Positions 40,648-60,320 of a stretch of 60,524 nt of DNA are shown here, in pieces. Each line of letters starts with the position of its first letter. Within the stretch, counting starts at the first letter, position 1. A program made the translations under genes and the position numbers. This stretch comes from Alphaproteobacteria bacterium (lineage in GTDB: Bacteria; Pseudomonadota; Alphaproteobacteria; DSM-16000; Inquilinaceae). A model generated the notes under the pieces. The model worked only from the letters and a program-made list of their open reading frames with translations. It was not told where the DNA came from and did not search any database. The stretch lies in assembly GCA_009909005.1 (NCBI GenBank), contig JAAAOG010000075.1:1-60524 (forward strand). Direction: 5' to 3'.

Positions 40648-40672
40648 CGAACCCAGAACAGGGAGAGCGCTC

Positions 40673-41302: not shown

Positions 41303-41317
41303 CACGCAAAGCACAAC

Positions 41318-41346
41318 GGGCCGCCCGCCCGCCCGGCCGGCGGCCC
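41318..41346. terminator. Hairpin after the DJ-1/PfpI gene
   Basis: GGGCCGCC (41318-41325) pairs with GGCGGCCC (41339-41346) over 13 bases, 16 bases after the stop. No T-run. Probably ends the AGE/DJ-1 transcription unit and marks the left edge of the defence island. Confidence 0.4.
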
Positions 41347-41510
41347 GCTGCGCCAAGTCAAGCGACACCGCTGACGGCCCTTCTCCCGAGAGTGCCGACC
41401 TACCACCCGCCGCAAGAAAGCTCGCGGCGGGTGCCATTGCCAACGCAAACCATTGCTTCCGATCGCCCCTATCCGTCCTCGCGATCGCCCTTGCCCCGTG
41501 CGGCGAAAGA

Positions 41511-41549
41511 AGGCCATAATCGCCGCAGATCATGCGGTGATTATGGCCT
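41511..41549. promoter_or_regulatory. Long inverted repeat over the fic start codon
   Basis: AGGCCATAATCGCCGC (41511-41526) and GCGGTGATTATGGCCT (41534-41549) are inverted copies with one mismatch, separated by 7 bases. The right arm contains the ATG of the Fic gene (41543). Either a repressor operator, perhaps for the Fic protein's own C-terminal DNA-binding-like region, or an mRNA hairpin that hides the start codon. Confidence 0.7.
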
Positions 41550-42683: not shown

Positions 42684-43406
42684 TCACCTTTTCGAGCGAG
42701 ACGTTCGCTGCGCTTGCCCTTTTGAGGCCTCTGGTTCGCTATACCCCTTAATACGCTGCATCATGCGCTCCAAAAGAAAAGCGGGAATCTGCTCCTTTAA
42801 ATCAAGCATAAATTGATGATGGCAATGGCGGAGTTTCTTTCCGCTTCCGCACGGGCAAATATTATGGCCCTTTATCTTTTTATGTCGCAGCAGGCAAACA
42901 TAAGGGGATACATCCTCCTGATCACCTAATTTTAGTATCCGACGGTATGCATCTATTATCCCATCTTTTCCGTGTCTCCTTTCACCAAATACCCATTGTC
43001 CTTTCAATTCAAAAAGAGACTGGCTTACAAAGTAAGAATTCAACGGCCCATCAACAAAAGACTGGAAATTAGCGCAATCAGTCGTCCATAGCCACTCTTC
43101 CCATATACAAATACAGCATTGCCCACTCGCAGAATAGATATGTCGGTCAGGGTCTCTTGGTATACGTTTCGCTGTTTCCCAGACGAGAGGCTCTACGAAT
43201 GGAAAACCCCATTCAATGACGATGAGGATTTCAAAAAAATCAAATGGCCCCTCAGGGCCACTGCATACAAACTGCCCTTTTAGAGCAAAGCCCTTTTCAA
43301 GGCTGCGAACCTCTAGCCTGTGTGGGCGGTCCTGTAGAGCTTCATCAATTTCGGTCAGAAAGCCCGTCTGATTCGTTGCGTCTAGCGGATCTGCAAGCCC
43401 GACCAC
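42684..43406 (-). CDS. CBASS-type E2-like protein with C-terminal SEC-C zinc motif
   Basis: 240 residues, GTG start at 43406 overlapping the CD-NTase stop by 25 bases. The first 160 residues look like the E2-like conjugating domain of short type II CBASS: HIYSASGQCCICIWEEW with candidate catalytic cysteines 97, 98 and 100, then a downstream pattern WVFGERRHG. The C-terminus adds a SEC-C metal-binding motif CPCGSGKKLRHCH (Cys184, Cys186, Cys195, His196). E2-only CBASS proteins form a thioester and regulate or attach the CD-NTase. Low GC compared with the core genome. There is no E1 or JAB gene. SEC-C fusion is the odd feature; the E2 call rests on motif shape and context. Confidence 0.75.
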   Translation of the reverse strand: MVGLADPLDATNQTGFLTEIDEALQDRPHRLEVRSLEKGFALKGQFVCSGPEGPFDFFEILIVIEWGFPFVEPLVWETAKRIPRDPDRHIYSASGQCCICIWEEWLWTTDCANFQSFVDGPLNSYFVSQSLFELKGQWVFGERRHGKDGIIDAYRRILKLGDQEDVSPYVCLLRHKKIKGHNICPCGSGKKLRHCHHQFMLDLKEQIPAFLLERMMQRIKGYSEPEASKGQAQRTSRSKR

Positions 43407-44494
43407 GGTCTTGCCCCACGACCGCTATAGCGGATCTCCGTTGCCGCCGCTTCTGCCCGCCTCAATTTCTCCTCCGCAGAAAGTCCTCCGACCAGCGATG
43501 CCAAGGTATCCGCCGATTTGCCCGAGCCAGCGATAGTGGCGCTATTCTGTGGAGCAGGTTGCCCTGATTTTGCAGACTTATCAAAGAAGGAATGCCGAAA
43601 TACCATCTTCCATGCCTTCTGGGCATCTTCACCGGTTATCGAATCATCGTCTTTCGTAAGTGGATCGAGGTCGTCGACTGCCTTCTCGGCTGCTTCGATC
43701 AAACGTCCAATTCTCTCGACATCTTTTTTGCGCCCAACGACGCTCCCGTTAGCCATAATTAGCTGGTTTTTTGACCGATGACTAAGCCCCCTCAAGGTCT
43801 CGTATACAGACTCGTCATCACGTCCTTCGACCGGCACATAGCACTCAATTGCTAGCGCTGTGGCCAATAGTCCTCCAGGGAATTTCTTGTTCTTTCGAAA
43901 AGAATGAACTTTGGCAAAGTACTTTACGAACCGAATTATACGCCGGAGTTGGTTGGGCCCGTTATCTTGAGGGCTCTTATCGGCTATCTGCTTCTCAATC
44001 CATCTATTCATCGAGCCAGGGTCAGACGATATCCAGTCACTCTCGGCGGCGATCTCATAAAGGTAGGCATCACCGTTTATAGATCTTTTTATAACCGGGA
44101 AATCACACTGATACCCGTCAGCGTACGCGACGCGCACGCACTTGGATTTTACCTCAGGATCGTTCTTCAGATTTGCCGCTTTCTTGGCGATTGCGTCCCT
44201 GACCCATCCTTTGGTCGTCTTCGGCGTCTTCGCATCGTCTGCTTCGAAAACGACGCCCATATCGATGTCGTAACGACTTTCTTCATCCCCCTCCGGAGGT
44301 TGGGTCATCGTTTTCTGCGCATAGCCCCCTTGGTTGATCCAGTCTACGGGCAGCGGCTTGCAAAGATCATTCAGCCCATCCTTAATCCTATTGCGATTCA
44401 GATCCCTGCGATCCCTCATCTGCTTCTGCTGCTCGCGAGTCAGCGTCACATGCTGATCGTGAAAGCGCCTCACTTCTCTGGAATGATCATACAT
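43382..44494 (-). CDS. CD-NTase (cGAS/DncV-like nucleotidyltransferase)
   Basis: 370 residues from the ATG at 44494, preceded by GGAGG. Nucleotidyltransferase motifs of the CBASS synthase: activation-loop GGYAQKT at 56-62 (canonical GS is GG here), catalytic Asp76 and Asp78 in YDIDMGVVF, and third Asp131 in QCDFPV. A helical OAS1-C-like region follows (RRIIRFVKYFAKVHSF). It would make a cyclic di- or trinucleotide on infection. The C-terminus ends in RPWSGLQIR, with a Gly close to the end that an E2 could target. Lower GC than surroundings. Divergent from the Cap15-like effector gene. Confidence 0.88.
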   Translation of the reverse strand: MYDHSREVRRFHDQHVTLTREQQKQMRDRRDLNRNRIKDGLNDLCKPLPVDWINQGGYAQKTMTQPPEGDEESRYDIDMGVVFEADDAKTPKTTKGWVRDAIAKKAANLKNDPEVKSKCVRVAYADGYQCDFPVIKRSINGDAYLYEIAAESDWISSDPGSMNRWIEKQIADKSPQDNGPNQLRRIIRFVKYFAKVHSFRKNKKFPGGLLATALAIECYVPVEGRDDESVYETLRGLSHRSKNQLIMANGSVVGRKKDVERIGRLIEAAEKAVDDLDPLTKDDDSITGEDAQKAWKMVFRHSFFDKSAKSGQPAPQNSATIAGSGKSADTLASLVGGLSAEEKLRRAEAAATEIRYSGRGARPWSGLQIR

Positions 44495-44579
44495 CTTGCG
44501 GTCCTCCGAAACAAGACCATCTAGGTGGGAGCTGCTCGCGAGAGGCGCAAGGCAGTGTTTACGAAAAGTTCGAGACACC

Positions 44580-45320
44580 ATGTATCAGCTCATACCGGCC
44601 ACCTGGCGCACCACCGCCCTAACGCTTTTCGGCGTTTTGGCGATTTGTGCGATGGGTGTCCCCGAATGGTTCGGTCTTGCGATGTCGCCTTATCAAGTGG
44701 CAGCGGCTCTTGCGATCTTGGTTCTGGGGTTGCTCGCAGTCGCTTTCGGATCGTCAAACTACCATAGTCCATGGCGCTGGCTCTGGCGAAAAATGCCGAT
44801 ACTCAACAAAGCATTGTTTCCGGATCTAAATGGAGTATGGGTCGGGACAACAAGATCAAATTGGCCTGTAATTAGAAACCTTTTGGACGCGGCCAAGGGC
44901 GAAGTCTTGAGCGTAAAAGATTCCCATGATGTTCCGCTTCAGGAAAATGGTATGGCGCTTATCATTGATGCAAACCTTTTTCGGGTTAATATAAAAGCGT
45001 ATGTGGCTAGTACGTCTGGGAATTCACGATCTATAACATTTGCTCTTGATAGATACCCGACGGATAAAGACATACGACTAACCTATCTCTATAAGCAGAA
45101 AACCCCAGATCCAAGGCAATCAGACGAAAGTGAGCACTTTGGAGCCGCCTCACTCTGTTTTGAGAATGCAAACTTTGATAAATGTGATGGCTTCTATTGG
45201 AATCGCCGCAAATGGCGCGAAGGCATGAATACAGCAGGAATACTTGAATTCGTTCGGAAAACTGATAATTATGACCCAAAGAAACACGACCTTTTCCAGT
45301 TTGCAAAAACCGATTTTTGA
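44580..45320 (+). CDS. Cap15-like CBASS effector (2TM plus beta-barrel)
   Basis: 246 residues from the ATG at 44580. Two membrane helices (about 11-28 and 37-58) are followed by a beta-rich domain starting FPDLNGVWVGTTRSNWP at 80-96, with strand patterns SITFALDRYPTD and EHFGAASLCFE. This matches Cap15 (S-2TM-beta) CBASS effectors, which bind a cyclic nucleotide in the barrel and oligomerise to disrupt the inner membrane. It is 85 bases away from and divergent to the CD-NTase gene, whereas most CBASS operons are co-directional. AT-rich coding sequence. Confidence 0.85.
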   Translation: MYQLIPATWRTTALTLFGVLAICAMGVPEWFGLAMSPYQVAAALAILVLGLLAVAFGSSNYHSPWRWLWRKMPILNKALFPDLNGVWVGTTRSNWPVIRNLLDAAKGEVLSVKDSHDVPLQENGMALIIDANLFRVNIKAYVASTSGNSRSITFALDRYPTDKDIRLTYLYKQKTPDPRQSDESEHFGAASLCFENANFDKCDGFYWNRRKWREGMNTAGILEFVRKTDNYDPKKHDLFQFAKTDF

Positions 45321-45344: not shown

Positions 45345-46103
45345 TTAATTGCGCGCATCAAACACCCCCGCCCTGTGACTGGCCAAGTAAGGCCGATGCG
45401 CCGTCTTGAGGCCGGTCAGCGGCGGCAGGGCGTTGAGGCGCAGGGCGGCGCGGTCGGCGGGGGCAAGGCCAGGGGAGACGATCAGGGCGCCGTTGTCGGC
45501 GAAAGTGATCAGGCCGGCGTCGAAGGCGGCGTCGAGATGGGCGGCGAGGAGCAGGCCGTTGTGGATGTCAAGCCGCTCTGCGTCGGTCTCGCAGGCGGCC
45601 CAGGGCTTCATGTGGCTGGCGCGCAGCAGGCGGGGATGGGTGATCCCGGTCAGCGGGCAGGCGCCGCCCCAATATTCCAAAAGCGCGGCACGGAAAATGT
45701 CCTGACCGACCCGCTGGACGACCAGGCGTTCGGCCTCGGTGGCTTTCGGCAGCGCCCGGGTGCGGTCGCGGAAGCTGTCCAGCGGCGCGGTCGGCAGGCT
45801 GCGGGCGAGGCGGAACAGCCGGCGGATGATCGGCCCCAGCTCCGCCACCGCCACGGCTGTGCCGCCATCAGGCCGGCGCAGGGACGCGGCGCCGAGCTCG
45901 GCCGCGACCTCCGCCATCGCCCCCTCATGGGCGAAGCCGACCAGCCACTGCCCGTCGGCACGCGCGACCCAGAGCCGCCAGGGGCAGGCCAGCCCGGTGA
46001 AGGCCGCCCAGCCATCCTCTTCCCCCTGCGGCAGGCCGAAGCCATTGTCCTCGGTCAGCCGCTCCAGCTCCAGACACTGCAGGGTGGTGAGGGGCTGAAG
46101 CAT
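45345..46103 (-). CDS. HNH endonuclease (last gene of defence operon)
   Basis: 252 residues from the ATG at 46103. The C-terminal HNH domain has WGGACPLTGITHPRLLRASHMKPW and later NGLLLAAHLDAAFDAGLITF, the pattern of restriction-type HNH nucleases (CxxTG...SHxxPW...NG...H). The N-terminal 130 residues are a variable region, likely for DNA or target recognition. It follows the YwgA-like gene by 5 bases, high-GC like the operon, and is the last gene of the six-gene unit. It may provide the cleavage activity the helicases lack. Confidence 0.85.
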   Translation of the reverse strand: MLQPLTTLQCLELERLTEDNGFGLPQGEEDGWAAFTGLACPWRLWVARADGQWLVGFAHEGAMAEVAAELGAASLRRPDGGTAVAVAELGPIIRRLFRLARSLPTAPLDSFRDRTRALPKATEAERLVVQRVGQDIFRAALLEYWGGACPLTGITHPRLLRASHMKPWAACETDAERLDIHNGLLLAAHLDAAFDAGLITFADNGALIVSPGLAPADRAALRLNALPPLTGLKTAHRPYLASHRAGVFDARN

Positions 46104-46108
46104 CCCCG

Positions 46109-46630
46109 TCAGGCGGCAAGGCCCAGATCGGCCAGCACCTGTTCCGCCCGGGCAATGTTCTGATCGGTGGCCTTGATCGTCTTGCGAGCCTTGAGAGTCG
46201 CCTTCCAGTCTGGCGCCTTTTCCGCATGGCGCAACCAATGGATGGTCGCCGCCAGTTCCAGAATCACCGAAGGCTCTTTCTTGAGACGCGCAACCTCTTG
46301 CTGAGCATCGGCCGCCGGCAGTCCCAGAAGAGTTTCGGACTTGGCCGGTGGCTCTAAGCCCTTCCAACGAAAGGCGCTGTAGGTCGTGCCCCGTCCCGTC
46401 TCGCGGATTTCTTCCTCGATCCGGTCGGAGAAGACGACGCCAAAATCCAACGCGTCGGCCAGATCGCGGCAGAAAGGGCCATAATGGTGGTACACGAAGG
46501 AAAGATCGCGGCAGCCGGCCTTTTGCTGGAGCAGATAGGCGATCTTCTGGAGCCGGATGCGACCGACTATGTCGCCGTCGGCGGCACTGAACAGTTCGGC
46601 TAGGTGCTCTTCGGCGCTCATGGGTTTCAC
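46109..46630 (-). CDS. YwgA-like protein
   Basis: 173 residues, its ATG overlapping the HD gene stop (ATGA). The N-terminus GRIRLQKIAYLLQQKAG and FVYHHYGPFCRDLADAL resembles Bacillus YwgA and the related SocA/DUF4065-like regulators. In Bacillus ywgA lies beside an HD-domain gene (ywfO), as here, which supports the assignment. Function is unknown; it may inhibit or adapt the HD enzyme. Moderate similarity only. Confidence 0.6.
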   Translation of the reverse strand: MKPMSAEEHLAELFSAADGDIVGRIRLQKIAYLLQQKAGCRDLSFVYHHYGPFCRDLADALDFGVVFSDRIEEEIRETGRGTTYSAFRWKGLEPPAKSETLLGLPAADAQQEVARLKKEPSVILELAATIHWLRHAEKAPDWKATLKARKTIKATDQNIARAEQVLADLGLAA

Positions 46631-48018
46631 CGTCCGGTTCTTGCGATGCGCTCCGCCCTGTCGTGGTCCTTTTCCTCCAAAAAATAATATCGGACCAAGA
46701 TCTTGGGTCTTTCGAACCCTTTGCTGATAAGGGTGTCGGGAAACCGCGTAATTTCCCGCAGTCCTTCGGTCGTACGAACCCTTATGACTTTATGCTCTTT
46801 CGCAGGCTTGCCGTCCAGCGCCGAATAGAAACTGATCGGCGCTGCGTCGCGGAACACGGTAACCTCGAGCTGCTCCTTGAAGGCCTGCTGGAGCTTTTTA
46901 TCCGTGCTACCGACCATGGTCGCGTCCGCTGGATGGTGCGCCGAAACGTCCAAACACCGCAACCGCTGCCGATGCAGCAGCCGCTGTGCCAACCCCCGCG
47001 GATAGCCAGCACCTTTTCGGTGCAGTCTCTCGATAACGCCCCAGACCATGACGTCGTCCAGCTGTACATAATCTTGGACTTCACCGACGCCATCGGCGGT
47101 CAAGAGTCTCATCAGTGGATGATCGGCTTCGATGCCGCTTTCTGCGGCATTTTCCGGTTTTCCCAGCCAGCATAGCAGAGCGCCCAGCACCTGCTCGAAG
47201 CCGCGCGTCGTCTTATGCATGTAAACGTTGCTGTACAGGCGATATCGGGCAAGCAGGAAATCCTCTGCGGCGGCGCGTCCCTTCTCCGAGAAGGCAAAGG
47301 TCGAAACTGTCGAAAGTTCACCGTTCTCATCCTCGCCGCTGAGTGGAATGTCCTCGATAATCAGGCTGTCGAACAGCCACTCGCTGTCGAACAGCCACTC
47401 GCTGTCGAATGCCCCCGCATGAGTGCCGGTCATGTACCTGTCCCGGGCGAGGTAATCCAGCCGGTCGGCATCGAAGGAGCTGGAGATCACCGCGTGATAG
47501 ATGTCGCTCGGATCGTCGGCCTCAATCACGGCGGCAATTTCATCCGGCAGACCCGGGTCGTCAGATAGCAGCGGCGAGATGGCGCCAGCCGGGTTCTTGA
47601 TGATCTCCGCGCTGTAATATTCATGCTTCCTATAATCCGCTTCCCGGCTTTTCTGGGTCAGCAACGCTCGGCGGGCGCCTTCGAAGGTGTGGCTGAACGG
47701 ACCGTGCCCGATATCGTGCAGCAGAGCGGCGAGGCGTATGACTTTGGCCCTGCGCTCGTCCAGACCTCCATTCAGCTTCTCGATGATGCGCAGCAGGCGG
47801 CGGGCGTTGTGATAGACGCCGAGGGAGTGGGCGAAGCGGGTGTGGGTGGCGCCGGGGAAGATGAACTCGCTGACGCCGAGCTGACGGATGCGGCGCAGGC
47901 GCTGGAATTCCGGCGTGTTGATCAGCCGCCAGGCCAACTGGTCGACATCGTCATTTTCGTCGAAAACGATCAGATTGTGGATCGGATCGCGGACGCGCTG
48001 GGTCTTTGGTTCGGTCAT
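46627..48018 (-). CDS. HD-domain phosphohydrolase (YwfO/YdhJ-like, SAMHD1-type)
   Basis: 463 residues. The HD motif is complete: THTRFAHSLGVYHNARRLLR with His64, LLHDIGHGPFSH with His101-Asp102, and the later Asp in FDADRLDYLARD. This is the fold of dNTP triphosphohydrolases (SAMHD1/dGTPase) and of YwfO/YdhJ. It starts within the methylase stop (ATGA overlap) and ends in the YwgA-like start, so three genes are translationally linked. It could lower dNTP pools during phage infection (inference). An in-frame 18-bp tandem duplication in the middle repeats FDSEWL. Confidence 0.88.
   Translation of the reverse strand: MTEPKTQRVRDPIHNLIVFDENDDVDQLAWRLINTPEFQRLRRIRQLGVSEFIFPGATHTRFAHSLGVYHNARRLLRIIEKLNGGLDERRAKVIRLAALLHDIGHGPFSHTFEGARRALLTQKSREADYRKHEYYSAEIIKNPAGAISPLLSDDPGLPDEIAAVIEADDPSDIYHAVISSSFDADRLDYLARDRYMTGTHAGAFDSEWLFDSEWLFDSLIIEDIPLSGEDENGELSTVSTFAFSEKGRAAAEDFLLARYRLYSNVYMHKTTRGFEQVLGALLCWLGKPENAAESGIEADHPLMRLLTADGVGEVQDYVQLDDVMVWGVIERLHRKGAGYPRGLAQRLLHRQRLRCLDVSAHHPADATMVGSTDKKLQQAFKEQLEVTVFRDAAPISFYSALDGKPAKEHKVIRVRTTEGLREITRFPDTLISKGFERPKILVRYYFLEEKDHDRAERIARTGR
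47365..47400. repeat. 18-bp in-frame tandem duplication inside the HD gene
   Basis: GCTGTCGAACAGCCACTC occurs twice in tandem (47365-47382, 47383-47400), with a 9-base partial third copy. It adds six residues and does not break the frame. Confidence 0.95.
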
Positions 48019-51000
48019 GGCGTCACCCCCTCCAGCGCGTCATAGGCGGCGAGGACGAGGCGGCTTGTGCGGTATTCGCCGTGCTGGGCGATTTCCTTGT
48101 CGCGGAGACCGCGGAAGGTTTCGGACGGGTAGTCGGGGCCGTGCGTGTCCGTGGGATCGAGGACATAGCGCAGCTCGTCGCGGCTGAGGCCGTATTTGCG
48201 GGCGAAGAAGCCGTCCAGCTCGGCGCGGAGCCGGGCGCGGCGCTCCGGGTCCCAGGGAAAGGGCGGGCCGGCATGGCCCAGATCCTCGGCCCAGGGGCGC
48301 ATGGCGTGGCTGGTATAGGTGAGTTCGAGGACGCGCGGGGCGATGAAGTCGAGATCGGCGGCGCTGAAGGCAGAGGGCGGGACGACGGCTAGCTGTTTGA
48401 AGACATTATACTTCAGATGCGTTCCCCCGACCTTTTGTCTTGCAGCGAAATCGAGCGCCAAGGAAGCCATACAGCCAGCGAGACAGGCTGCCTGTCGTGC
48501 TGGGACGCCGATTGGGTACTTCAGCAAAAGCGTGTCCCCAGTCCCCACGCGCGGAAACACCGTGGCGATAACCGTCCGTTCGTCGGTCGAGCGGCAGATG
48601 TCGCGCCAGCCCATCAGCCAGCGGGGTTGTTTGCGGTCGATGAGCAGGGCGGCCTTGTCCAGCGGGTCAGGTGGAGCATCGGCGAGGGCCCGAAGGTCTT
48701 CGGCATCGAGCGGGGCCTTGCGCTGCAGCGCCGGCCAGGCCTTGCGGACGGCCGGCTTGGCGAGCCAGCGGTCGGGCGTCGTGCCCAGCGCTTCGGTCCA
48801 GGGGTGGCCGCGGCCGAGGGTGCGCAGCAGATCGTCGCCGCGGGCCGGGCGGCCATGGACGGCGGGCCAGGCGGCGGCGACATGGTCGGCCAGCGCCTTC
48901 AGCGCCTTGGCCGGGTCTTCGGCCCGCGCGGCGCCTTTCAGGCCGGACGAGACCCGGGCGGCGCGCAGCCGCACCTCCGTCGCCGGGACCCAATAGCGGG
49001 GCACGGGCTCGAAAGCCGGGTCGGCCTTTTCGGCCAGGGTCACATCGCGCGCGCCCTCCTCGTCCGCCGACGCGCCGTCGCCATAGGTCGCCCAGCGATG
49101 GTCGAAATGATGAATCATCTTGGCTTCATAGAGCGGCACATACCGCTCCTCGCCGTCAGCCTTGACCCAATCCGTCCCGTCCCGCTCCCACCCGCCGGCC
49201 GAAAGCGTGTCTGCGCCGCGAAAGAGGCCGCTGTCATTCGACATGTGGAACATGGCCTGAAAGACGACGCCCCAGGGATTGACATCGCCTCCCTGGTCCT
49301 CCGGCCGCTCCGCTATCAGCACCGGCACGCGGTCGTAGATGCTCGCGGTCAGGGCGGCGTCGGCCTGGGAGCGAAAGATCGGCGCGGTCTTGGTGTTGGG
49401 GTTGATGCGGGCGATCTGCGGCGGCGTCAGGGTGAAGCGCCGACGGCCGTCTTCCAGCTCGCCAGTCGACAGCAGGAAGAAGGCGAATTCGGCCAGATCA
49501 GCCGGCCCAAGCGAGAGGATCGAGAATTTGAAGCTGCGGTGGACGCCGGGGAAAATGCCTTGCCGGTTTTCGAAATCGATCAGCGCGGCAAGACGCCGCC
49601 CGTCGATCAGACTGCCGAAAAACGCCGCCGTAGAACTGTCGGTGGCGATGCCGGTTGGGACGATCACACCGGCGCGGCCGCGATCGCCGATGAGCATCGC
49701 GAAGGATTCGGCGAAGAGGGCGTAGGTGTTGACGTCGCCGGTTCCGGTCAACGGAAAGCGCACGCCCGAGCGGGCAAAGGCGCTGGCGGCTTCGGCCTCG
49801 CGCCTGGCGGCCTGGAAGGCCTCGAACAGCCGGCGGTCGGCGCTGCCCTCCTCTGCCTGGCCGAGCGCGGCGATCATGCGCTGGCGTTCGGCGGCGTTGC
49901 GGGCCTTGGCGATCTCCGGGGCGCGGCCGGCGAAATACTCCTGCTCCTGGAGCTTGATGCGCTCCCAGGGCGGGTTGCCGATCACCGCGTCGAAGCCGCC
50001 GGCGGCCATTTCGGCCGGGAAGGCGATCGGCCAGTGCAGGGCGCGGAGGTCCCAGGCGAGGCCGTCGGCGGCGGCGAGCAGCGGGCCATAGACCGGCTCG
50101 CCGCGGGCGGCCGCCCAGACATGGCCGGTCAGCGGCACGGCCGGCCGGGCCAGCGCCTCCCGCCGCGCCTCGGTGCCGGTCGGCAGCGCCGGCTTGCGGG
50201 CGAAGAAGGCAGCGATAAACAGGTCGCAGGCCTGCTTGCGGCGCCGCCAGCCTTCGCCCTCGGTCAGCTTCCGGAAGGCGCGGCGCTTGGCGGCGATCGC
50301 CTCGACGCTGTCCTCGGGCAGGGCGGCGGCGGCGCGGGCCTCGTCGACCAGCGCCGCCGGCGGGCGCAGCTCGGATAAGAGGCCGGTGGCGGCCTTGCCC
50401 TCGCGCTGCTCCTTGTTCCATTTGCGCCATGTCTTCGCCGCGTCCTTGTCGTCGCCGGTCAGCCCTTCATAGGCGGCATCCGGCACGCCCTCGGTCAGGG
50501 CGGCGAGGTCCATGATTCCGATCAGGCTGTCGCCGCAGAGGATGCGGGCGTCGAGGAAGCTGAGCGGCTTGCCGGGCTCCAGCGCCTCGATCCACAGCGC
50601 GACCTTGCACAGCTCGACCGCCAGGGGGTTGCGGTCGACGCCGTAGATGCAGTGGGAGACGACCTCCCGCAGCGCATGCTGGAACTCCTCGCGGCCGGGC
50701 GCGCCGGGACTGCGCAGGGCGGCGAGGCGGGCGGCCATGCGCCGCGCCGCGCCGAGCAGAAAGTGCCCGGAACCGCAGGCAGGGTCGAGCAGGGTCAGTT
50801 TGAGCAGCGCGGCGGCCGGGTCGGCCGTCGCCTCGGCGCGGTCGAGCAGCGGGTCGAGCGTCTTGTCGAGGACCAGGCGGACCAGGGCGTCGGGGGTGTA
50901 ATAGCTGCCGGTGCTCTTGCGCTCCGACCCGGCGGCGCCGGTCTGGTCGCGGAAGCCGAAGGTCCGGGCCTCGACATTGACCTCGGGGATCAGCTCCAGC

Positions 51001-52316
51001 AGGCCCTCATAGACCGAGCCCAGCTCCTCGGTCTCCATGTCGCGCCAGTTGACGCGGGACAGGGATTGGCCGGGCGGACGGATCCAGGCAAGGCGGAAGA
51101 TCGCCTCCATGATCTGCCGGTTGCCGATGCGGGCCGCGTCCAGCCAGGGCGTGCGGCCCGGGTCGAACAGCCCGCCCAGCCCAGGCAGGCCGAGCGCCGG
51201 CGCGCCGCGGATAAGGGCGCGGAACAGGGCGCGCAGCCCGTCCCAGGCATCGTGATGGCGGTTCCAGGCGGTGCGATGAATGGCCCGCTCCCGCAGCCGG
51301 CCGACGCCATAGCCCTCGGCATAGGCGCGCCGGGCCGTCGCCGGCGTGCCGGACGGGTGCAAGAGGTCGCGGTCCTCGGCGGCGAACAGGAAGATCAGGC
51401 GATAGACGGCGCCGAGCAGCTCCTCATGGAAGCCTTGCGGCGTCAGCGTGCCGCTCGCCAGCGCCTCGCGCAGGGCGGCGTTGGCGGGATGGCTGATCGC
51501 CCCCTGGCCGAGCAGCGCCAGAGCCGTCTCGACGCCGGCGCGGAGCTTGTCGCGGGCGGCGACGCCGTCCTGCTTGCCCTGCTCCCGCCAACGCTCCAGC
51601 GGGCAGTCCGACGGCAGGGCCGGCGCGGCGCCGAAGCGGCTGCGGTGGACCAGCAGCCACAGGGCGGAGAAGTCGGCATAAAGCCGGTCATGGAAGATCT
51701 TGGCGAGGTCGGCCTCGATCCAGGCCGGGCGGGTCAGGCTGAGATTGTCGCGCAGCAGGCGCAGCGTCCGCCCGTCCGTCGCCAGGCCCCACAGGCAGCG
51801 CTCCTCATTGTTCAGGTACTCCTGGAGCAGCTGCGTGGCCGACCGCCGGCGGCCGCCATCGGCAAAGCGTTCGTGCAGCACGTCGAGCCCGGTGCGCTGC
51901 CGCCCCGGATCGACCGCGGGCGCAATCACCACCGGGACACGGCCATCGCCGGCGGCATGGCCGATCGGGAAGACGCGGTCATTGTTGTGGACCGGCGCGA
52001 CGGGGGCGATATCGGCGAAGCCGAACACGTCGCGGAGCAGGCCCGGCAGGACGGCGCGGGCCATCTCGGGATCGGCGGCGTGGCCGGCGTCGAACCGGGC
52101 CCATTGGGCTTCGGCCATGCGGAAGGCGCGGGCGATCTCGTCGCGCAACTCCAGCCCTTCCGGGATGCCATAGGCGCGGCGGTCTGCGGCGTCGCCGGCC
52201 GGCTCGGCGATGCGGGCGACCATGTCGGGGGTCAGAAGGCCGCCGGCGACCTCGATGGCCGGGAAGGATAGCTGCCGGGCGCGCCGGGTCGGGCGGGGGC
52301 GTGCGGTCCGGGCCAT
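48015..52316 (-). CDS. Large N6-adenine DNA methylase (Eco57I/DrmMI-like)
   Basis: 1433 residues from the ATG at 52316. The gamma-class methylase motifs are [12 protein letters not shown] at 511-522 (S-adenosylmethionine site) and NPPWERI at 781-787 (target base). The N-terminal 450 residues are a domain without clear nuclease motif; a TaqI/Eco57I-like specificity region follows the catalytic part ([18 protein letters not shown] and after). It is translationally linked to the SNF2 helicase (one base between stop and start) and the HD gene (ATGA). As in DISARM class 1, it would mark host DNA so that the helicases ignore it; whether it modifies host DNA here is inferred. Confidence 0.88.
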
Positions 52317-52317
52317 G

Positions 52318-55119
52318 TCAGAGCCTCGGCAGCAGCACATACAGGCCGATCACGTCGACCGGCTCGACAGGCGTCACCGTCACCTGCGCCTGGGAGCCGA
52401 GTGCGCGGCGCACCCGGCCGTGATCCTCCGCCAGGCTGGCGGCCCGTTCGGCGGCGAAGGCACTGACCGTCGCCATGCGGTCGGGCAGCGCCTCCAGCGC
52501 GGCGGCGATCTCCCGGGCGCGAACGCTCTCGGCCAGGTCGCCGCTGTCGGCGTCGAGCAGGGCGAAGGCCTCCGGACCGACGGCCAGGGTCGCGCCGTCG
52601 CGCTTGGCCAGGGCCAGGGCCTGCGCTTCCTCCGCCATCTGGAAACGCGGCGCGCCCAGCCGGCCGCGGCTGTCGAGCCGGTGACGCAGGCGCAGCACGA
52701 AGAGATGCGTCGCTTTCTTGACCGCCGGCGAGTCCCAGACGCCCATGCGCGGCAGCACCGCCGGGTCGGCGCGGTCGGACTCGGCCTCCAGCGCCTCTTC
52801 CAGGAAAGTTTCGGCCAGCACGCCCGGCAGCGGGTGGGTGCGGTGGACGGCGATCGCCCGGGCCCCGGCCCTGGGACCGAAGGCGAGCAGCAGGGGCTTG
52901 GGCTCCGGCGTGTCGTCGAGCAGGCCTTCGGCGATCAGCCGCTCCCGCAGAAGCGGGCTGTCGACCGCCAGCGAGGCCTTCCAGGCGCCGTCCGGTCTCT
53001 GTGTGGGCGCGCGGCCGAGGCGGATCAGGGCGCGGGTGACGAAGCGCTCTGCGTCTTCGAACCCGCCCAGCGCCAGCCTTGTGGCGTCCCATTCCGGGGC
53101 GACCTCTTCCGGCTTTAGGGTGCGCTGGGCGAAAATGGTCCGCGACCGCTTTTCCCGCTCCGAGGCGTTGGTCCAGGCGACGTCGAAGTCCCGCGCTTCC
53201 GGTTTGAAGAGGTCGAGCGTGTATTGCCGCGTGTCTGCATGCAGCAGCACCTTGGACATCAGCGCCTGGGTCAGGCTGCCGTCGCGATCGGGCAGCGGCA
53301 CGCGCACGCCGGTTTCCCGCTCGATCTCCTTGGCCTTGCGGAGGATCACCTCCAGCACCGCGCCGTCGATCGGGTTGTTCTCCCCGAAGATCAGCACCGT
53401 GCGTACAAGCGGCGAGGGCTGGCCGAAGCGGTCGATCCGCCCTTCCCGCTGCTGATGCCGGGTCGGGTTCCAGGAGAGGTCGTAATGGATCGCCGCGTCG
53501 AACCAGGCCTGAAGGTTGATCCCTTCCGACAGGCAGTCGGTGGCGACCAGCAGGCGCCGTTCCGCGGCGGCGGCCAGGGCCTCGACCCGCGCCTCGCGCT
53601 CGTCCGATGGCAGCTCGCCGGTGACGGCCTCGACCGTGACGTCGCCGAAGTCGCGGGCCAGCGCCGCAGCGACGGCGCGCGCGGTGGCGATATAGCGGCA
53701 GAAGACGACGGGGCGGAACCCCTCCCCGATCAGCTCGCCGGCGAGTTTTCGCAGGCAGGCGTATTTCGGGTCGCGTCGGGGCTCGGCGGCGAGGCGGTCG
53801 GCTTCGGCGATCAGCCCGGCGAGCCGCGGATCCTCGATCGCGGCGCCCGGCTCCACATCGTCTTCGGCGACTTCCTCGTCGTCGAGCGCGCGGGCGGCGA
53901 TCTCCGCCTCCTCCTCGGCGTCGACATCGGTCGCGGCGCGGGTGCGCAGCGCCTGAGCGGCGGCGGCGGGGCTGGAGCCGACGCATCGCATCAGCGCCAG
54001 CGTGCCCCAGAAGGCCAGGCGCCGGCGGCGTTCGCCGTCGGCCGCCTTCACCACATCGGCGCAATAGGCGAGCGCCTCGTTGAACAACCGTTCGTGCGGG
54101 CCCGACAGACGATAGGGCAGATCGCTGGACTCGCGGGTCGGGAACAGGCCGGGCTCGCGCCAGTCCGCGATGTCGGCGCGACGGCGCTGGATGAAGTGAG
54201 TGGCGAGCCGCTCGCGCAACCGCCGCCGTTCGCCTTCGACGGCCTCATCGATGCCGGCGAAGGCAGGGTCGAGAAGGCCGAGGAGATTGTGGAACGCCTC
54301 TTCGTCGCCGGAATGCGGCGTGGCGGTGAGCAGCACGAGATGCTTCGGTTTCTCGCGGTCTTCCGCCAGGTCCTTGAGCAGCCGATAGCGCTGGTGCCGG
54401 GCGCGGCCGCCGGTGACGCAGGCATGCGCCTCGTCGACGACCACCAGCTCGGGGCAGGCGCGCAGGAAATCGTCCCGCCGACGGTCGCTCTTGATGAAAT
54501 CCAGGCTGACGACGGTGTGGGGATAGGCATCGAAGACGCTGACCGTGTCGGGCAGGTCGCGTTCGAGCCGCGCCGCCTGCGCGGCGGTGACCGCCATCGC
54601 CGACAGGGCGAATTTCGAGTCCAGCTCTGCCGTCCATTGCTCCACCAGATGCGGCGGGCACAGCACGGCGAAACGTTCGATCTCGCCGCGGTCGAGGAAC
54701 TCCCGGACGATCAGCCCGGCCTCGATGGTCTTGCCGATGCCGACATCGTCGGCGATCAGCAGCCGCGCCGTTTCCTGCCGCAGCGCCATCAGCAGCGGCG
54801 CGAGCTGATAGGCGCGCGGCTCGAAGGCGAGACGGCCGGCGCTGCGGAACGGCCCGGCGCCGCGGCGCAGCGACAGCCGCAGCGCGTCGCGGAGCAGCTG
54901 CGCAGCCTCGCGCCCGCCCGTCCGCTTGCCGTCGGGCGCCGGGAAAGCGGCTTCGGCGATGGGCTCCAGCTCCAGCGCCGGCTGAAGCAGCTCGACCTCG
55001 GTTTCCGCGCCGGTCAGCGGCCGCACCCGCAGGCCGCCATCGGCGCCGAGCACCACCCATTCCCGCCCGCGCGCCCGCACCAGCTGGCCGGGCGAGAATT
55101 GCTGCGCCGCTGCGCTCAT
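52318..55119 (-). CDS. SNF2-family helicase (DrmD-like)
   Basis: 933 residues. The N-terminus FSPGQLVRARGREWVVL is an SH3-like fold typical of DrmD/RapA-like proteins. Walker A is GIGKT at 127-131, the DEAH box VVVDEAHA is at 226-233, and the C-terminal helicase has DCLSEGINLQAWFD and HQQREGRIDRFGQ. SNF2 proteins move along double-stranded DNA. The start overlaps the large helicase stop by 4 bases. Similar to DISARM class 1 DrmD in size and companion methylase. Confidence 0.9.
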   Translation of the reverse strand: MSAAAQQFSPGQLVRARGREWVVLGADGGLRVRPLTGAETEVELLQPALELEPIAEAAFPAPDGKRTGGREAAQLLRDALRLSLRRGAGPFRSAGRLAFEPRAYQLAPLLMALRQETARLLIADDVGIGKTIEAGLIVREFLDRGEIERFAVLCPPHLVEQWTAELDSKFALSAMAVTAAQAARLERDLPDTVSVFDAYPHTVVSLDFIKSDRRRDDFLRACPELVVVDEAHACVTGGRARHQRYRLLKDLAEDREKPKHLVLLTATPHSGDEEAFHNLLGLLDPAFAGIDEAVEGERRRLRERLATHFIQRRRADIADWREPGLFPTRESSDLPYRLSGPHERLFNEALAYCADVVKAADGERRRRLAFWGTLALMRCVGSSPAAAAQALRTRAATDVDAEEEAEIAARALDDEEVAEDDVEPGAAIEDPRLAGLIAEADRLAAEPRRDPKYACLRKLAGELIGEGFRPVVFCRYIATARAVAAALARDFGDVTVEAVTGELPSDEREARVEALAAAAERRLLVATDCLSEGINLQAWFDAAIHYDLSWNPTRHQQREGRIDRFGQPSPLVRTVLIFGENNPIDGAVLEVILRKAKEIERETGVRVPLPDRDGSLTQALMSKVLLHADTRQYTLDLFKPEARDFDVAWTNASEREKRSRTIFAQRTLKPEEVAPEWDATRLALGGFEDAERFVTRALIRLGRAPTQRPDGAWKASLAVDSPLLRERLIAEGLLDDTPEPKPLLLAFGPRAGARAIAVHRTHPLPGVLAETFLEEALEAESDRADPAVLPRMGVWDSPAVKKATHLFVLRLRHRLDSRGRLGAPRFQMAEEAQALALAKRDGATLAVGPEAFALLDADSGDLAESVRAREIAAALEALPDRMATVSAFAAERAASLAEDHGRVRRALGSQAQVTVTPVEPVDVIGLYVLLPRL

Positions 55120-58100
55120 GATCCGTCCTCCAGCCGTCGGGTCAGGTCTTGGCAGGCCGCCGCCCGCGCCGCCGGTTCGGCCGGCAGCAGGACAACCTCG
55201 AAGCCGCTGTCTTCGAGGTCGCCGGCCAGAGCGGCCGCCGGCCCCGCCGCCTCAACGGCGACCAGACGATGCCGCCGCCAGACCAGCGGGATATCGACGC
55301 CGTCAAGGTGGATCGGCTCGGCGTCCGGCGGCGGCAGTCCGTCAGCCCCTGCCGGCGCTGCGGGGTCGCGTGCGGCGCCGAATTCGGCCGTCAGCAGGCG
55401 CAGAAGGAACTGACGCAACGCCGGCAGCCGGCGGTCGATATCGGCCTGGTCAGGCTGGTTATAGTAGGAGAGCAGGCACTGATAGCACCCGGCGACGCAT
55501 TTTGTGTCCACGGCGTCGGCCAGCGAGTCCGGCCCCGCCGTCTTCGCCGCTTCGATGCTCGCCTCGGTCAGGTGAATGGCGCGCAGCGCTTCGAATGCGA
55601 CCGAGCGGAAAGGCTCCACCTCCTGTACAAGCCGGCCAAGCGCGCCGGCGCCGCCCTCCGCGGCTTCGTAGAACAGCAAAGCGTTCCGGTTGCCGCGGTT
55701 CGGCGTCGGTTCGCCCAGGATCTCGCCCTCTTCCAGCTGAAAGTTGGCCTCAATCCCCCGCGCCAGCGCATGCTGGAGCGTCACCATCAGCGCGTCTGCG
55801 TCGGGGCCCGATTCGCCGCGCAGGGCGGCCGGGAACCGGATCATCAGGGCGTTCTTGTGATCCTCGACGACCGGCGTGATCCGCTGCGGCTGGTCGGCCG
55901 GGGAGGGATCGTTGACCTCTCCCGACGACTTGCCCAGCCAACGGCCGGTGCGCGGGTTGATCTGGAACCCGACTTCGGCCTCATCCTTGCGCCGTCTCAG
56001 CCCCCTGTTGATCCGACGGATGCGCGCCGCCGGGGCGAACGTCATGCTGGCCAGCGGATGGCCTTCCGCGTCGACCAGCTCGACGTCGACGCGGCTGGCG
56101 TCGGCCGGCATGTGCACGGTCGTCTGGATGTCGAAGCCCTGCCGGCGCCGATCCTCGTCATTCGAGGTGATCCGCTCTACGGGCCGTGTGGCGACATTGT
56201 CGATCCGGTAGAGATCGCGGGTGACATGCGCCTTGGTCAATGGGTGTCCGCAGAGATGGCAGGATTCCCGGTTCTCCTCGTCATGCCCCGCCCCACAGGC
56301 CGGGCAGATGATCGTGGCGAAGGTGATCAGCCGGCCGTCAATGCCGCCGCCCGCGCCCAGCATCGCCTTGTCGACGCGGTAGGCGCGCCCCTCGTGATAA
56401 ACGAGGCTGCCCGGGCCGAATTCGGCGATCGCCAGGAAGCGGGCCCGCTGCAGATAGCGGTCCCGGCGCTGTTCGGACTCTCCCGGGATAAAAGCCATCA
56501 GCGGCAGACGCGGGAAGTTGTAGCCGGGCAGAAAGCCTTCGGTCGCCAGGAAGCGATAAACAAAGAAATCCGAGCCGACATTGGCCGAGCCGCCCAGCAG
56601 GAGGTTGATCTGTCCCAAGGCCTGCGCAAGCCGCGTCTGAGCGCTGCGGCGCTCATATTCCGAAATGGAATAGTCCTTGAGCACCCGGTCGGCGTCGTCC
56701 CGCTGCTTCTCCGCGGCGGCGAACAGGTCGCGCCAGCGGCTGAAAGCCCGATCGAAGGAGTCCGCCGCGCTTCCGGCAAGAGACGCCGCATAGGCCTCAG
56801 CACCGGTAAACCAGGGGACGCCGGACAAGGTCTCGACCAGCGAGGTCAGCACCGGAACCATGGCGCGTGTGCCGGCTTCCGTCGAGTCCGGCGCTTTGGC
56901 GACCGCCTGGACCGCGGCGGACAGGGGCCACCCCGGCGCCGTCATGTCGAGGTTCTGGGGAATGTTGGACTGCAGTTCCAGCCCCGACGCGGCGAGCCAT
57001 TCCGCATGCAGATGGCTGTCGACCAAGCCCTTGTTGGCGAGGTCGATGGTCGGCGACTTGACGACGCCGGCCACCATCGCCGCCGGATTGGCAAAGAAGT
57101 ACTGGTCATGCGGGCTTTGCGCCGCGCAATAGGTGACGATCAGTGCCGCCTGGCCGCTGCGGCCGGCTCGGCCGCTGCGCTGGACATAATTGGCCGGCGT
57201 CGGCGGCATGTTGCGCAGATACACGACGTTCATCGCCGAAATGTCGACGCCCAGCTCCATCGTCGGCGAACAGAACAGCGTCGGCAGGAAGCGGGAGTCT
57301 TCACTCTCTTCTTTTAAGCGGGACGAGTTTTCCTGCAGTTTCTTGAGATCGTCGGCGCCATAGCGGAAGCGAGCCTCTCGCATTTCTCGCAGGAAGCTGT
57401 CCACCTGGGCCGTATGCTCCCGGCCCTCGAACCCGAACAGGGCCTGCCCGCCTTCCGCCAGCAGGCCGGCGACCATCCGGTACAGCTCGCAAAAAAATGC
57501 GTTCGTCCGCTCTGCCGGCCCAAGGCCATCGCGGGCGCGGAAGACCACGACATTGGCGTTGAGCCGCCATCCGTCCCCGCGCCCCACCGGCGAGGGCCGC
57601 GCGGTGATCAGGCCGTACGCCTTTGCGGCGGCAATCAGACCGTCGATGATCTCGCTGACTTCATTTGGGGCAGGCGGCGAGCCCCCGAAGCGAAGCTTGC
57701 GGATCTCCCGGCCGACCAGGCTGCGGGCGCTGCCGCGCAGCAGATAGACCTCATCGGCGAGCTTGATCTCTGCCCTCTTTGGGGGATTGACTACAAGGGT
57801 CGTAGCGCCCCGAACCCGATCCTCGGCGATCGACCAGGGCGGCTTGACCGTGGTGCGCATGCGGCCCGCAAGCGCTTCGACCATCGTCCGGTCTAGCGCA
57901 TCCGCCTCCACCGCCAGGCCTCTGCGCATGGTGTCGAGCAGCGTGCGCGCGGCCGCGGCCCGTTCTGCCGGACTTGCCGCCGCCAGCCGGACGACGCCGG
58001 CGAACTCATCCTCGTCCGCGCACATCTCATCAAGCGAGACGTAATCGGCTTCCAGCAGCCCCAGCTGTTCCAGGTTGGGATTGGTGAACCGCCAGCCACG

Positions 58101-60320
58101 CCGCTGATCGATCCAGAAGCGGTGCGCCAGCCCCTCGCGCATCGCCCTTTCGGCGTCCATCCGGCCGGCGCCCTTCACCTCCGGGTCGACCATCCATTCG
58201 ACCCGGCGGGTAGCGTTCGCCGCCACGAAGCCAAGGGCATTCTGTATCGCCAACCCGACGCGGTCATGGCTTAGGCCATCCGGGCCCGCCGCCTCCAGCG
58301 CCGCCAGGATCGCGCCGCGCAGTAGCGTCACGAAGACGAAATCGTTGAAATGGCCCGCCTGCAGCGCGGCGTCCTGCCGGTTGTCGGTAAAGGCCAGCAG
58401 CTTGCGCCGGGCCGGCTTGATCGCCGCAGCCCCGTCCTCATGCATCCAGCGCAGCATGGCGGCGATCAGGACCGTGGTGGCGGAACTCCGCCCTTCCGCG
58501 CTCAGGGACGCCAGCCGGTTGATGTCACGCGTCGCATCCGTGTGGTAGTCGCCGCAGGCAGGGCAGAATTTGAACTTGCCCGGCATGAACCAGGCGCGCA
58601 CGCCGCCCGGCCCGACGGTTCCGTCCGGCCGGACGTCATGCACGATCGCCTGTGACTTTCGAAAGCTGGCCTTCAGCCGGACCTCGCCGCGCCTGGTCGC
58701 TTCCTGCCACGGCTCCGGATAGTCTTCCGGCGCGCCGCCGAAGCCGAAATCGCCTCCCACCGGCTCGGGCATCAGGAATCCCCAACGCCTGCCACCGAGC
58801 TCCGGATCATCTTCCGTGTCGACCGGAACGTCGTCGATCTCACGCTTCTCGAAGAGGATTTGCCCCTGATTGTCCACTTGGAACACCGGATGGTGTTCCT
58901 GGCCGCATTTCCGGCAGAAATGCGCAGCGTAGAGCCGTTTGTCCGGGTTATCCGGGTCGTAGACCTGACCGTCGAAGGTGACGGTGCGCCGGCCTGCCGG
59001 ATCGAGCGTCACATAGACCCGTCCGGCGCCGCTGATCAGCTGGTGCAGGCGAAAGGCGAACAGCGGCTGATGGTCCCCGTCCTCGACGCCACGATCTGTC
59101 TCCGTCTGGCTGTAGGCGAGCAGCGCCTCCTTCAACGCCGCGGCGCAGGTCTCGGGATCAACGCCACTCTCTTCGGCCAGGCGGGCGACCGCCGTCTCCA
59201 CGGCGATCGGCCGCGCCCGTTCCGGCTTCATATCCACGTTCCTGAGGCCCAGCCGGGTTTCCACCCAGATCGCCAAGGCGTCCTGAGCCAGCTCCGCATT
59301 GCGTCGCCCGGCGAAAGCGCCCGGCTGCGCTGCCTTACGAACCGCACCGTCCAGGCCGGACAAGCCCTGATCCGCTGAGCGGGTGTCGTCCGTCCTCCGC
59401 TTCAGCGTCTCGGTGATCACCGCATCGGGGCCGATCGGCACGCCAAACAGGCGCGAGGCGACGTCGGCCACGGCCCGGTTCCGTTCGTCTTCATCCTCCG
59501 CGCTCGACATCGTCGCCGAGGTGCCGATGGCGATCGGCGGCTTCTCGCAGACCCGCGCTTTCAACCGCCGCATCAGCATCGCAACATCTGCGCCCTGACG
59601 GCCGCGATAAGTGTGCAGCTCGTCGAGGACGATGAATTCCAGCCCGCGGCAGTTCTCCAGGACTTTTTGGTCGAGCTCGCTCTGCCGGGTCATCAGCAGT
59701 TCGAGCATCATGAAGTTGGTCAGCAGAATGTCCGGCGCACGGTCGCGGATCTTCTCTCGATCCTCCGGGGATTCCTGACCGGTATAACGGGCAAACCGAA
59801 CAGGACCGTCATCCCCCAGGAACTTCCGCAGCTCTTCCATCTGGCTGTTGGCCAGCGCGTTCATCGGATAAATGATGATCGCCCGCGTCCGCGCCGAGGG
59901 ATCGGCCTGCTTGGCCTTGAGGATCGCGTCGACGATGGGGATGAAAAAGCACAGCGACTTGCCCGAGCCGGTTCCGGTGGTGACCACATAGCTTCGGCCC
60001 GACAGCGCGATTTCGATCGCCTGTGCCTGGTGCCGATGCAGCTTCAGCGACGGATCCGGATCATCAGGCCGCGCGTCAGGCGCCCGAAAGATCGCCGCCG
60101 TTTCACGGTGCAGTCCCGGCGCCCCGACCAGCTCCTTAAGGCTCTCGCCGCCTTTGTAATGAGGATTGATCTGCAAAAGCGGCGCCGGCCAGAAACGGCG
60201 ACTGGCATAGCCCGCATCGACCTTCTGGCGGATCTCTTCCGAGCGAATATCGACGAAAGATCGCGAGAACGCTTCGTACTCGCCAATGAGCCAATCGCTA
60301 AGTCTGAATACGTCCATCAT
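55116..60320 (-). CDS. Giant DEAD/DEAH helicase with DUF1998/MZB zinc domain
   Basis: 1734 residues from ATG 60320 (60317 also possible); the longer open frame to 60425 adds residues with no similarity. N-terminal MDVFRLSDWLIGEYEAF is typical of large defence helicases. Walker A TGTGSGKS is at 115-122 and the motif II box DELH at 233-236. A long insert with paired cysteines (CRKCGQEH, CPACGDYH) separates the two RecA domains; motif VI is YVQRSGRAGRSGQ. The C-terminal DUF1998/MZB region has CPACGAGH...CHLCG and CVAGCYQC. The architecture equals DrmA plus DrmB joined, or DruE. The last 90 residues are a small extra domain without a clear nuclease motif. Confidence 0.9.
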   Translation of the reverse strand: MMDVFRLSDWLIGEYEAFSRSFVDIRSEEIRQKVDAGYASRRFWPAPLLQINPHYKGGESLKELVGAPGLHRETAAIFRAPDARPDDPDPSLKLHRHQAQAIEIALSGRSYVVTTGTGSGKSLCFFIPIVDAILKAKQADPSARTRAIIIYPMNALANSQMEELRKFLGDDGPVRFARYTGQESPEDREKIRDRAPDILLTNFMMLELLMTRQSELDQKVLENCRGLEFIVLDELHTYRGRQGADVAMLMRRLKARVCEKPPIAIGTSATMSSAEDEDERNRAVADVASRLFGVPIGPDAVITETLKRRTDDTRSADQGLSGLDGAVRKAAQPGAFAGRRNAELAQDALAIWVETRLGLRNVDMKPERARPIAVETAVARLAEESGVDPETCAAALKEALLAYSQTETDRGVEDGDHQPLFAFRLHQLISGAGRVYVTLDPAGRRTVTFDGQVYDPDNPDKRLYAAHFCRKCGQEHHPVFQVDNQGQILFEKREIDDVPVDTEDDPELGGRRWGFLMPEPVGGDFGFGGAPEDYPEPWQEATRRGEVRLKASFRKSQAIVHDVRPDGTVGPGGVRAWFMPGKFKFCPACGDYHTDATRDINRLASLSAEGRSSATTVLIAAMLRWMHEDGAAAIKPARRKLLAFTDNRQDAALQAGHFNDFVFVTLLRGAILAALEAAGPDGLSHDRVGLAIQNALGFVAANATRRVEWMVDPEVKGAGRMDAERAMREGLAHRFWIDQRRGWRFTNPNLEQLGLLEADYVSLDEMCADEDEFAGVVRLAAASPAERAAAARTLLDTMRRGLAVEADALDRTMVEALAGRMRTTVKPPWSIAEDRVRGATTLVVNPPKRAEIKLADEVYLLRGSARSLVGREIRKLRFGGSPPAPNEVSEIIDGLIAAAKAYGLITARPSPVGRGDGWRLNANVVVFRARDGLGPAERTNAFFCELYRMVAGLLAEGGQALFGFEGREHTAQVDSFLREMREARFRYGADDLKKLQENSSRLKEESEDSRFLPTLFCSPTMELGVDISAMNVVYLRNMPPTPANYVQRSGRAGRSGQAALIVTYCAAQSPHDQYFFANPAAMVAGVVKSPTIDLANKGLVDSHLHAEWLAASGLELQSNIPQNLDMTAPGWPLSAAVQAVAKAPDSTEAGTRAMVPVLTSLVETLSGVPWFTGAEAYAASLAGSAADSFDRAFSRWRDLFAAAEKQRDDADRVLKDYSISEYERRSAQTRLAQALGQINLLLGGSANVGSDFFVYRFLATEGFLPGYNFPRLPLMAFIPGESEQRRDRYLQRARFLAIAEFGPGSLVYHEGRAYRVDKAMLGAGGGIDGRLITFATIICPACGAGHDEENRESCHLCGHPLTKAHVTRDLYRIDNVATRPVERITSNDEDRRRQGFDIQTTVHMPADASRVDVELVDAEGHPLASMTFAPAARIRRINRGLRRRKDEAEVGFQINPRTGRWLGKSSGEVNDPSPADQPQRITPVVEDHKNALMIRFPAALRGESGPDADALMVTLQHALARGIEANFQLEEGEILGEPTPNRGNRNALLFYEAAEGGAGALGRLVQEVEPFRSVAFEALRAIHLTEASIEAAKTAGPDSLADAVDTKCVAGCYQCLLSYYNQPDQADIDRRLPALRQFLLRLLTAEFGAARDPAAPAGADGLPPPDAEPIHLDGVDIPLVWRRHRLVAVEAAGPAAALAGDLEDSGFEVVLLPAEPAARAAACQDLTRRLEDGS

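Follow-up and report, generated by a model that had tools for sequence, protein, structure and literature searches.

The window analysed here, a stretch of 60,524 nucleotides from an alphaproteobacterium of the Inquilinaceae (contig JAAAOG010000075.1), carries on its minus strand an operon of six tightly packed genes (45345-60320) whose first three genes can be assigned, in kind and in order, to the defence system ARMADA type I and not to DISARM or Druantia. They are followed by genes for an HD-domain homologue of deoxynucleoside triphosphate (dNTP) hydrolases, or dNTPases, for a small YwgA-like protein and for an HNH nuclease. We read the whole as an ARMADA type I core that has the HNH protein as its likely cutter and into which an antitoxin-restrained dNTPase cassette has been inserted as a second layer, an interpretation for which we see an even chance of being right.

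An ARMADA type I core at the head of the operon

Read from its first gene, the operon encodes a YprA-family, ArmC-like helicase with a fused DUF1998/MrfA zinc-binding domain (60320-55116, 1734 aa), an SNF2/RapA/BrxHII-like helicase that resembles ArmA and DrmD (55119-52318, 933 aa), a PglX/DrmMI-like, ArmB-like N6-adenine methylase (52316-48015, 1433 aa), the HD-domain dNTPase homologue of SAMHD1/EF1143/YwfO type (48018-46627, 463 aa), the YwgA-like protein, which has a GTG start (46630-46109, 173 aa), and the HNH_2 nuclease that closes the operon (46103-45345, 252 aa). The junctions between them are, in the same order, a 4-base overlap (ATGA), a 1-base gap, another 4-base ATGA overlap, a 4-base GTGA overlap and a 5-base gap. 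An original prediction, made from the letters of this DNA, had described six minus-strand genes packed with 4-base overlaps or gaps of 1-5 bases; all six were found where it had put them, and the overlaps and the short gap agree with the translational coupling of the last three genes to the core that it had proposed. The search for the gene order in other genomes that it had also suggested found the order kept beyond close relatives. An Accumulibacter metagenome-assembled genome (locus L031) shares all six genes and their order, with identities to the window proteins of 78, 81, 77, 59, 64 and 76% from the helicase to the HNH nuclease, and the six-gene order recurs in L079 and L099, which belong to two distant lineages. 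Because the order is identical in these three loci and the protein families match, the operon is not a chance arrangement. Upstream of it the contig continues for 204 bases only.

The YprA-like helicase has Pfam matches to DEAD (2.6e-30), Helicase_C and MZB (PF09369, 4.8e-9), and its best PADLOC label is DruE (E 2.3e-86). Its full-length matches lie in ARMADA operons that begin with YprA (39% for Nocardioides, 78% for Accumulibacter). Compared with type I-like operons it gives near full-length matches of 39-26%, whereas ARMADA II and DruE give partial ones only; the references sit on very long branches of the YprA tree. The SNF2 helicase, with its DEAH motif at residue 229, matches DrmD in NCBIfam at 6.7e-85, which is below the cut-off of that model, and no NCBIfam model reached its cut-off; a PADLOC model labelled DpdE matches it at 1.2e-190. 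This model, PDLC02853, fits the SNF2 helicase (52318-55119) far better (1e-190) than other models named DpdE do, and may derive from ARMADA proteins, hence a possible mislabelling of them. The methylase matches Eco57I in Pfam (2.3e-15) and DrmMI in PADLOC (1.8e-77), and has the motifs DPACGSG at 519 and NPPW at 789 (in a 1441-aa numbering).

The main text of Bell et al. (2025, PMC12458937) describes ARMADA type I as a YprA helicase with fused OB-CON-DUF1998, then a BrxHII/RapA-like helicase and then a PglX-like methylase; it defines the class by the YprA clade and these three genes, and places it as a distinct clade between DISARM and Druantia. A BrxA-like insertion behind RecA1 is a further feature of the type I helicase. 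The experiments described there covered type II only, which protected E. coli against phages without abortive death and required all four of its proteins; the function of type I is inferred in that text from sequence. In the window, a YprA-like helicase and DUF1998 are joined in one protein, and the order is YprA, SNF2 and methylase, without a GajB/RelE-like ArmD. The type II reference, which is the copy on an E. coli plasmid (the ARMADA II island of ATCC 8739 was not in the two stretches inspected), has a different gene order and an ATP-dependent helicase. Among 80 related loci, collected with the window methylase as the query, the YprA-SNF2-methylase order is common to most.

A near-constant HNH nuclease and a decayed Vsr domain

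The HNH gene matches HNH_2 in Pfam (3.6e-11) and the restriction enzyme VcaM4I (6yex) at 7.6e-38. A homologue lies downstream of the methylase, on the same strand, in 59 of the 62 loci (out of the 80, a sample biased towards the window methylase) whose sequence extends 3.5 kb or more beyond the methylase; it follows the methylase directly in L032, L034, L046, L049 and L069 and stands behind other genes in most loci. The catalytic residues are invariant among the homologues. In an AlphaFold2 model, built with one extra leading residue and with a predicted local distance difference test score (pLDDT) of 95, the C-terminal half resembles the modification-dependent restriction enzymes VcaM4I (Z 16.9) and TagI (Z 10.3). 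For the N-terminal domain the matches are weak, the folds being those of YdhG/frataxin and of the C-terminal part of T4 MotA (at a Z of about 7, too low to be trusted), and neither an SRA nor an EVE reader was seen there in the fold searches. No HNH gene is annotated in the type I operons of Nocardioides, which has McrBC instead, Paraburkholderia and Chlorohelix, and the constancy applies to this mainly proteobacterial branch, not to every type I. In the main text of PMC12458937, HNH occurs in the title of a reference only. The HNH protein is likely the cutter, and likely a fourth ARMADA type I component in this branch.

According to the same main text (PMC12458937), the type I helicase usually ends in a predicted active C-terminal nuclease of Vsr type. 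This usual architecture is missing from the window, where the tail alignment leaves a decayed remnant of the domain (55116-55360, minus strand, limits approximate). In that alignment, which covers the window and related loci, the motif [FVIY][IV]DGxxH is kept in 11 of 61 helicases and lost in the other 50, that of the window included. Distant relatives in Nocardioides and Haloquadratum retain it intact, and its loss is for this reason probably derived.

The variable slot and the HD-YwgA pair

Between the methylase and the HNH gene lies an accessory slot of variable content (46109-48018, minus strand), delimited by the contents of the 80 loci and by the GC content at third codon positions (GC3). 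Its commonest occupant is an SMC/LmuB-like ATPase of 650-700 aa (35 loci); elsewhere it holds GmrSD_N proteins, AAA_15/DUF3696 proteins with an RNA ligase, IrrE-type peptidases or DUF4209 proteins, or it is empty. The HD and YwgA-like genes fill it in the window, L031, L079 and L099. The original prediction had treated the HD, YwgA-like and HNH genes alike as additions to the core; the three are not equal, the HNH gene being nearly constant and the HD-YwgA pair one of many alternatives for the slot.

Mapped on the SNF2 protein tree, slot content takes 21 changes, compared with 22.2 when the labels are shuffled. The HD-YwgA state alone takes 3, each of them forced by well-supported branches. 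A single ancestral acquisition of the pair by ARMADA was rejected, as it would need many losses and the tree requires at least 3 changes; a clade of the four ARMADA HD proteins alone was mildly rejected by the approximately unbiased test (p 0.04). Base composition likewise sets the slot apart: in the window, GC3 is 0.73 for the HD gene and 0.72 for the YwgA-like gene, compared with 0.88 and 0.87 for the flanking methylase and HNH genes (pooled, 0.726 versus 0.878, p 2e-17), and the slot is also the lower in GC3 in L031 and L099, as it is in 38 of 45 others.

Three observations concern ARMADA on plasmids. A Nocardioides plasmid (L154, 12031-28012) has, behind a drmA/drmB pair of DISARM, an ARMADA type I operon that ends in McrB- and McrC-like genes, a further slot content. 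On two plasmids, Mu-type/TniB transposition genes adjoin ARMADA type I (L122, 19473-21968; L153, 27013-28779), an arrangement that points to Tn7- or Tn5053-like transposons as carriers. The E. coli plasmid pQnrS1_005237, typed as conjugative, has Zorya II genes next to Druantia III-like and ARMADA II-like ones (L156, L157), the array that the main text of Bell et al. describes on a chromosome (PMC12458937).

The HD protein can be identified as a dNTPase homologue of the SAMHD1/EF1143 type with its catalytic residues intact, as the original prediction had proposed. In phmmer searches its closest solved relatives are 2o6i, 3irh and 4lrl (2.5e-44), which we take to be the E. faecalis EF1143 dNTPase, and SAMHD1 is matched at 6e-23. 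The metal-binding and catalytic set H..HD..H..E..D of these enzymes is present as H64, H101/D102, H110, E113 and D185; across 11 homologues all are invariant except E113, which is nearly so. Nucleotide depletion is a plausible function for such a protein. A related HD protein ends a conserved set of four genes (radical SAM, 3'-5' exonuclease, small AAA protein, HD) in L117, L118 and L119, on Rhizobium, Sinorhizobium and Roseibium plasmids, and genes of defence type adjoin the set in two of them.

For the YwgA-like protein there was no significant Pfam match, and a single-sequence search of the PDB gave nothing. Profile searches match it to the C-terminal part of DarG (PADLOC 5e-9, NCBIfam 6e-7), with DarG 7yk3 as the best PDB profile match (0.022). 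Its AlphaFold2 model (pLDDT 90.6) aligns with 7yk3 at a Foldseek probability of 1.00 and a VIA Z of 12.4 over 158 of 173 residues, and the next entry reaches Z 6.4. As modelled, the protein is folded like the antitoxin domain at the C-terminus of DarG, which inhibits DarT: this domain occludes the active site of the toxin by mimicking single-stranded DNA (PMC11481870). The label YwgA-like used in the original prediction is fair as a name in B. subtilis style, but the relative that can be recognised is this DarG domain. In the literature searched, we found no named HD-YwgA system and no link between YwgA and DarG.

Relatives of the YwgA-like protein are rare: within the class, 9 of 385 genomes have one (E 1e-6), within the phylum 4 of 398 (1e-10), and the plasmid records searched gave no match. 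Outside ARMADA, each of the 12 strong relatives immediately follows an HD gene, and four of the 12 come from viral-contig records; a contig end cuts the HD gene in one of these pairs (L146) and the YwgA gene in another (L143). One pair precedes a type I restriction-modification operon (L148). G378, a remoter relative, is not flanked by an HD gene. In this pattern HD and YwgA behave as an autonomous pair. The HD proteins of the ARMADA operons form one subclade together with a single member from outside, L143 (support 96/93).

Just downstream of the operon the window has a CBASS-like pair (42684-44581, minus strand) that consists of a DncV-like cyclase (43382-44581, PADLOC 6e-90) and an E2-type protein (42684-43406, PADLOC 6e-54). 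Their GC3 values (0.57 and 0.44) are far below those of the ARMADA genes. Two large open reading frames of 609 and 510 aa that adjoin them (39142-42460, minus strand) matched nothing in Pfam or PADLOC; they could encode an unknown effector or may not be genes at all.

A proposed mechanism and its place among known systems

Gene content and order, protein families, catalytic residues, the decay of Vsr, the constancy of HNH, the turnover of the slot, the YwgA fold and the pairing with HD were computed. Every functional step that we add to them, including the inhibition of HD by YwgA and the coupling of the two layers, we infer. The PglX-like methylase would mark or scan host DNA, and the RapA-like and YprA-like helicases would engage and unwind phage DNA that is unmarked or replicating. 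The HNH protein would supply the cut, because the Vsr nuclease of the YprA helicase is degenerate in this lineage. Once this first layer fails, the HD dNTPase would empty the dNTP pool. In uninfected cells the YwgA-like protein would hold HD inactive, much as the product of CloB restrains the dNTPase CloA in Clover, a defence system in which the dNTPase is toxic without its partner (PMC12265719). More broadly, we speculate, and here we lean towards doubt, that ARMADA type I operons are a dock with a dedicated slot into which second-line effectors are exchanged repeatedly, and that HD-YwgA is an undescribed class of phage defence, a SAMHD1-like dNTPase checked by an antitoxin with the DarG C-terminal fold; a phage that blocks the core could then release the nested effector.

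Several points weigh against this scheme. Besides the window, the HD-YwgA pair turns up in only 3 of the 80 related loci, which makes it dispensable to ARMADA. The HNH gene stands beside an intact Vsr motif in 8 of 11 loci, so that HNH is not simply a replacement, and a role as strict substitute for the lost domain is unsupported. The YwgA-like protein is nearly neutral (25 acidic and 24 basic residues, isoelectric point (pI) 6.6), which speaks against a DarG-style acidic mimic of DNA; for this reason a contact of another kind is the more likely one, if YwgA inhibits HD. Its first 100 residues are weakly similar to winged-helix regulators of the PadR type (Z about 6), and on this modelled similarity it could bind DNA.

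The main rival is that the pair hitchhikes: HD-YwgA would be an independent dNTPase module, similar to a toxin-antitoxin pair, that shares the promoter of the operon and has its own trigger and targets, and the core and the HNH protein would work without it. We take this to be a serious possibility, if hardly a probable one. It would account for the occurrence of most pairs alone, for those in predicted viral contigs and for the one beside the restriction-modification operon in L148, and it agrees with a slot turnover that is near random on the core tree and with the divergence between the window and L031, where HD and YwgA have 59-64% identity and the core and HNH proteins 76-81%. It fits less well with an insertion that is confined to a single site and that 4-base overlaps couple translationally to the methylase, and the subclade of ARMADA HD proteins, with L143 as its only outside member (96/93), suggests some adaptation to ARMADA, or else transfer from one ARMADA operon to another. 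An unlikely alternative makes YwgA a sensor, which would bind single-stranded DNA exposed by the helicases and then activate HD, with dNTPs being depleted only when ARMADA is engaged. Residues 1-108, weakly winged-helix-like (Z about 6), the near-neutral to basic charge of several relatives (pI up to 9.4) and the translational coupling of YwgA to the helicase and methylase genes would suit such a role; however, the sole strong match of the fold is to an antitoxin domain, and for most HD-YwgA pairs no ARMADA helicase is close by. With this locus ARMADA type I gains a likely fourth component, the HNH nuclease, and a defined site for the exchange of second-line effectors, and the locus points to a compact pair, similar to a dNTPase with its antitoxin, that occurs by itself, in predicted viral contigs and within defence operons and that links nucleotide depletion of the SAMHD1 type to the antitoxin fold of DarG. 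The key claims are directly testable with two small genes.

The original prediction had read the operon as a blend of DISARM and Druantia, and a related helicase-methylase defence operon it is, but its first three genes match a system that already has a name. That it is a variant of either DISARM class 1 or Druantia is, in our estimate, very improbable. With DISARM class 1 it shares homologues of DrmD and DrmMI, the SNF2 helicase and the methylase; the functions of DrmA and DrmB are united in one protein, as had been predicted, with no separate DrmA and DrmB, and the DrmC phospholipase D nuclease is missing, a gene content that rules out membership. With Druantia it shares the helicase family and the best PADLOC label, DruE; the SNF2 helicase and the methylase are additional to that system, and the absence of its other genes (DruH, DruM/F/G, DruA-D) again rules out membership. 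The gene set and order are those of ARMADA type I, from which the window differs in the decayed Vsr-type nuclease of its helicase and in its HNH gene and variable slot, both absent from the main text of PMC12458937.

BREX and BREX-related systems recruit interchangeable auxiliary or backup effectors, HNH and GmrSD nucleases among them, to one core operon (PMC12839542). Variable effectors on one core are found here too, and the slot would be the ARMADA counterpart of this recruitment, although the core differs; that paper does not treat ARMADA, names neither YprA, DISARM nor Druantia, and lacks the terms HD domain and dNTP. DarTG shares with the window the fold of the DarG C-terminal domain, but the N-terminal macrodomain and an adjacent DarT are absent and the partner is an HD dNTPase. 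Clover is, like HD-YwgA, a two-gene combination of a dNTPase and a restraining partner, and CloA has its H117/D118, H126 and E129 at the same spacing as residues 101/102, 110 and 113 of the window protein, which is nearer to EF1143 and SAMHD1 than to dGTPases. CloB is a nucleotidyltransferase that makes p3diT, whereas the partner in the window has the predicted fold of a DarG domain, and the brake would differ from that of Clover in being a protein in place of a nucleotide.

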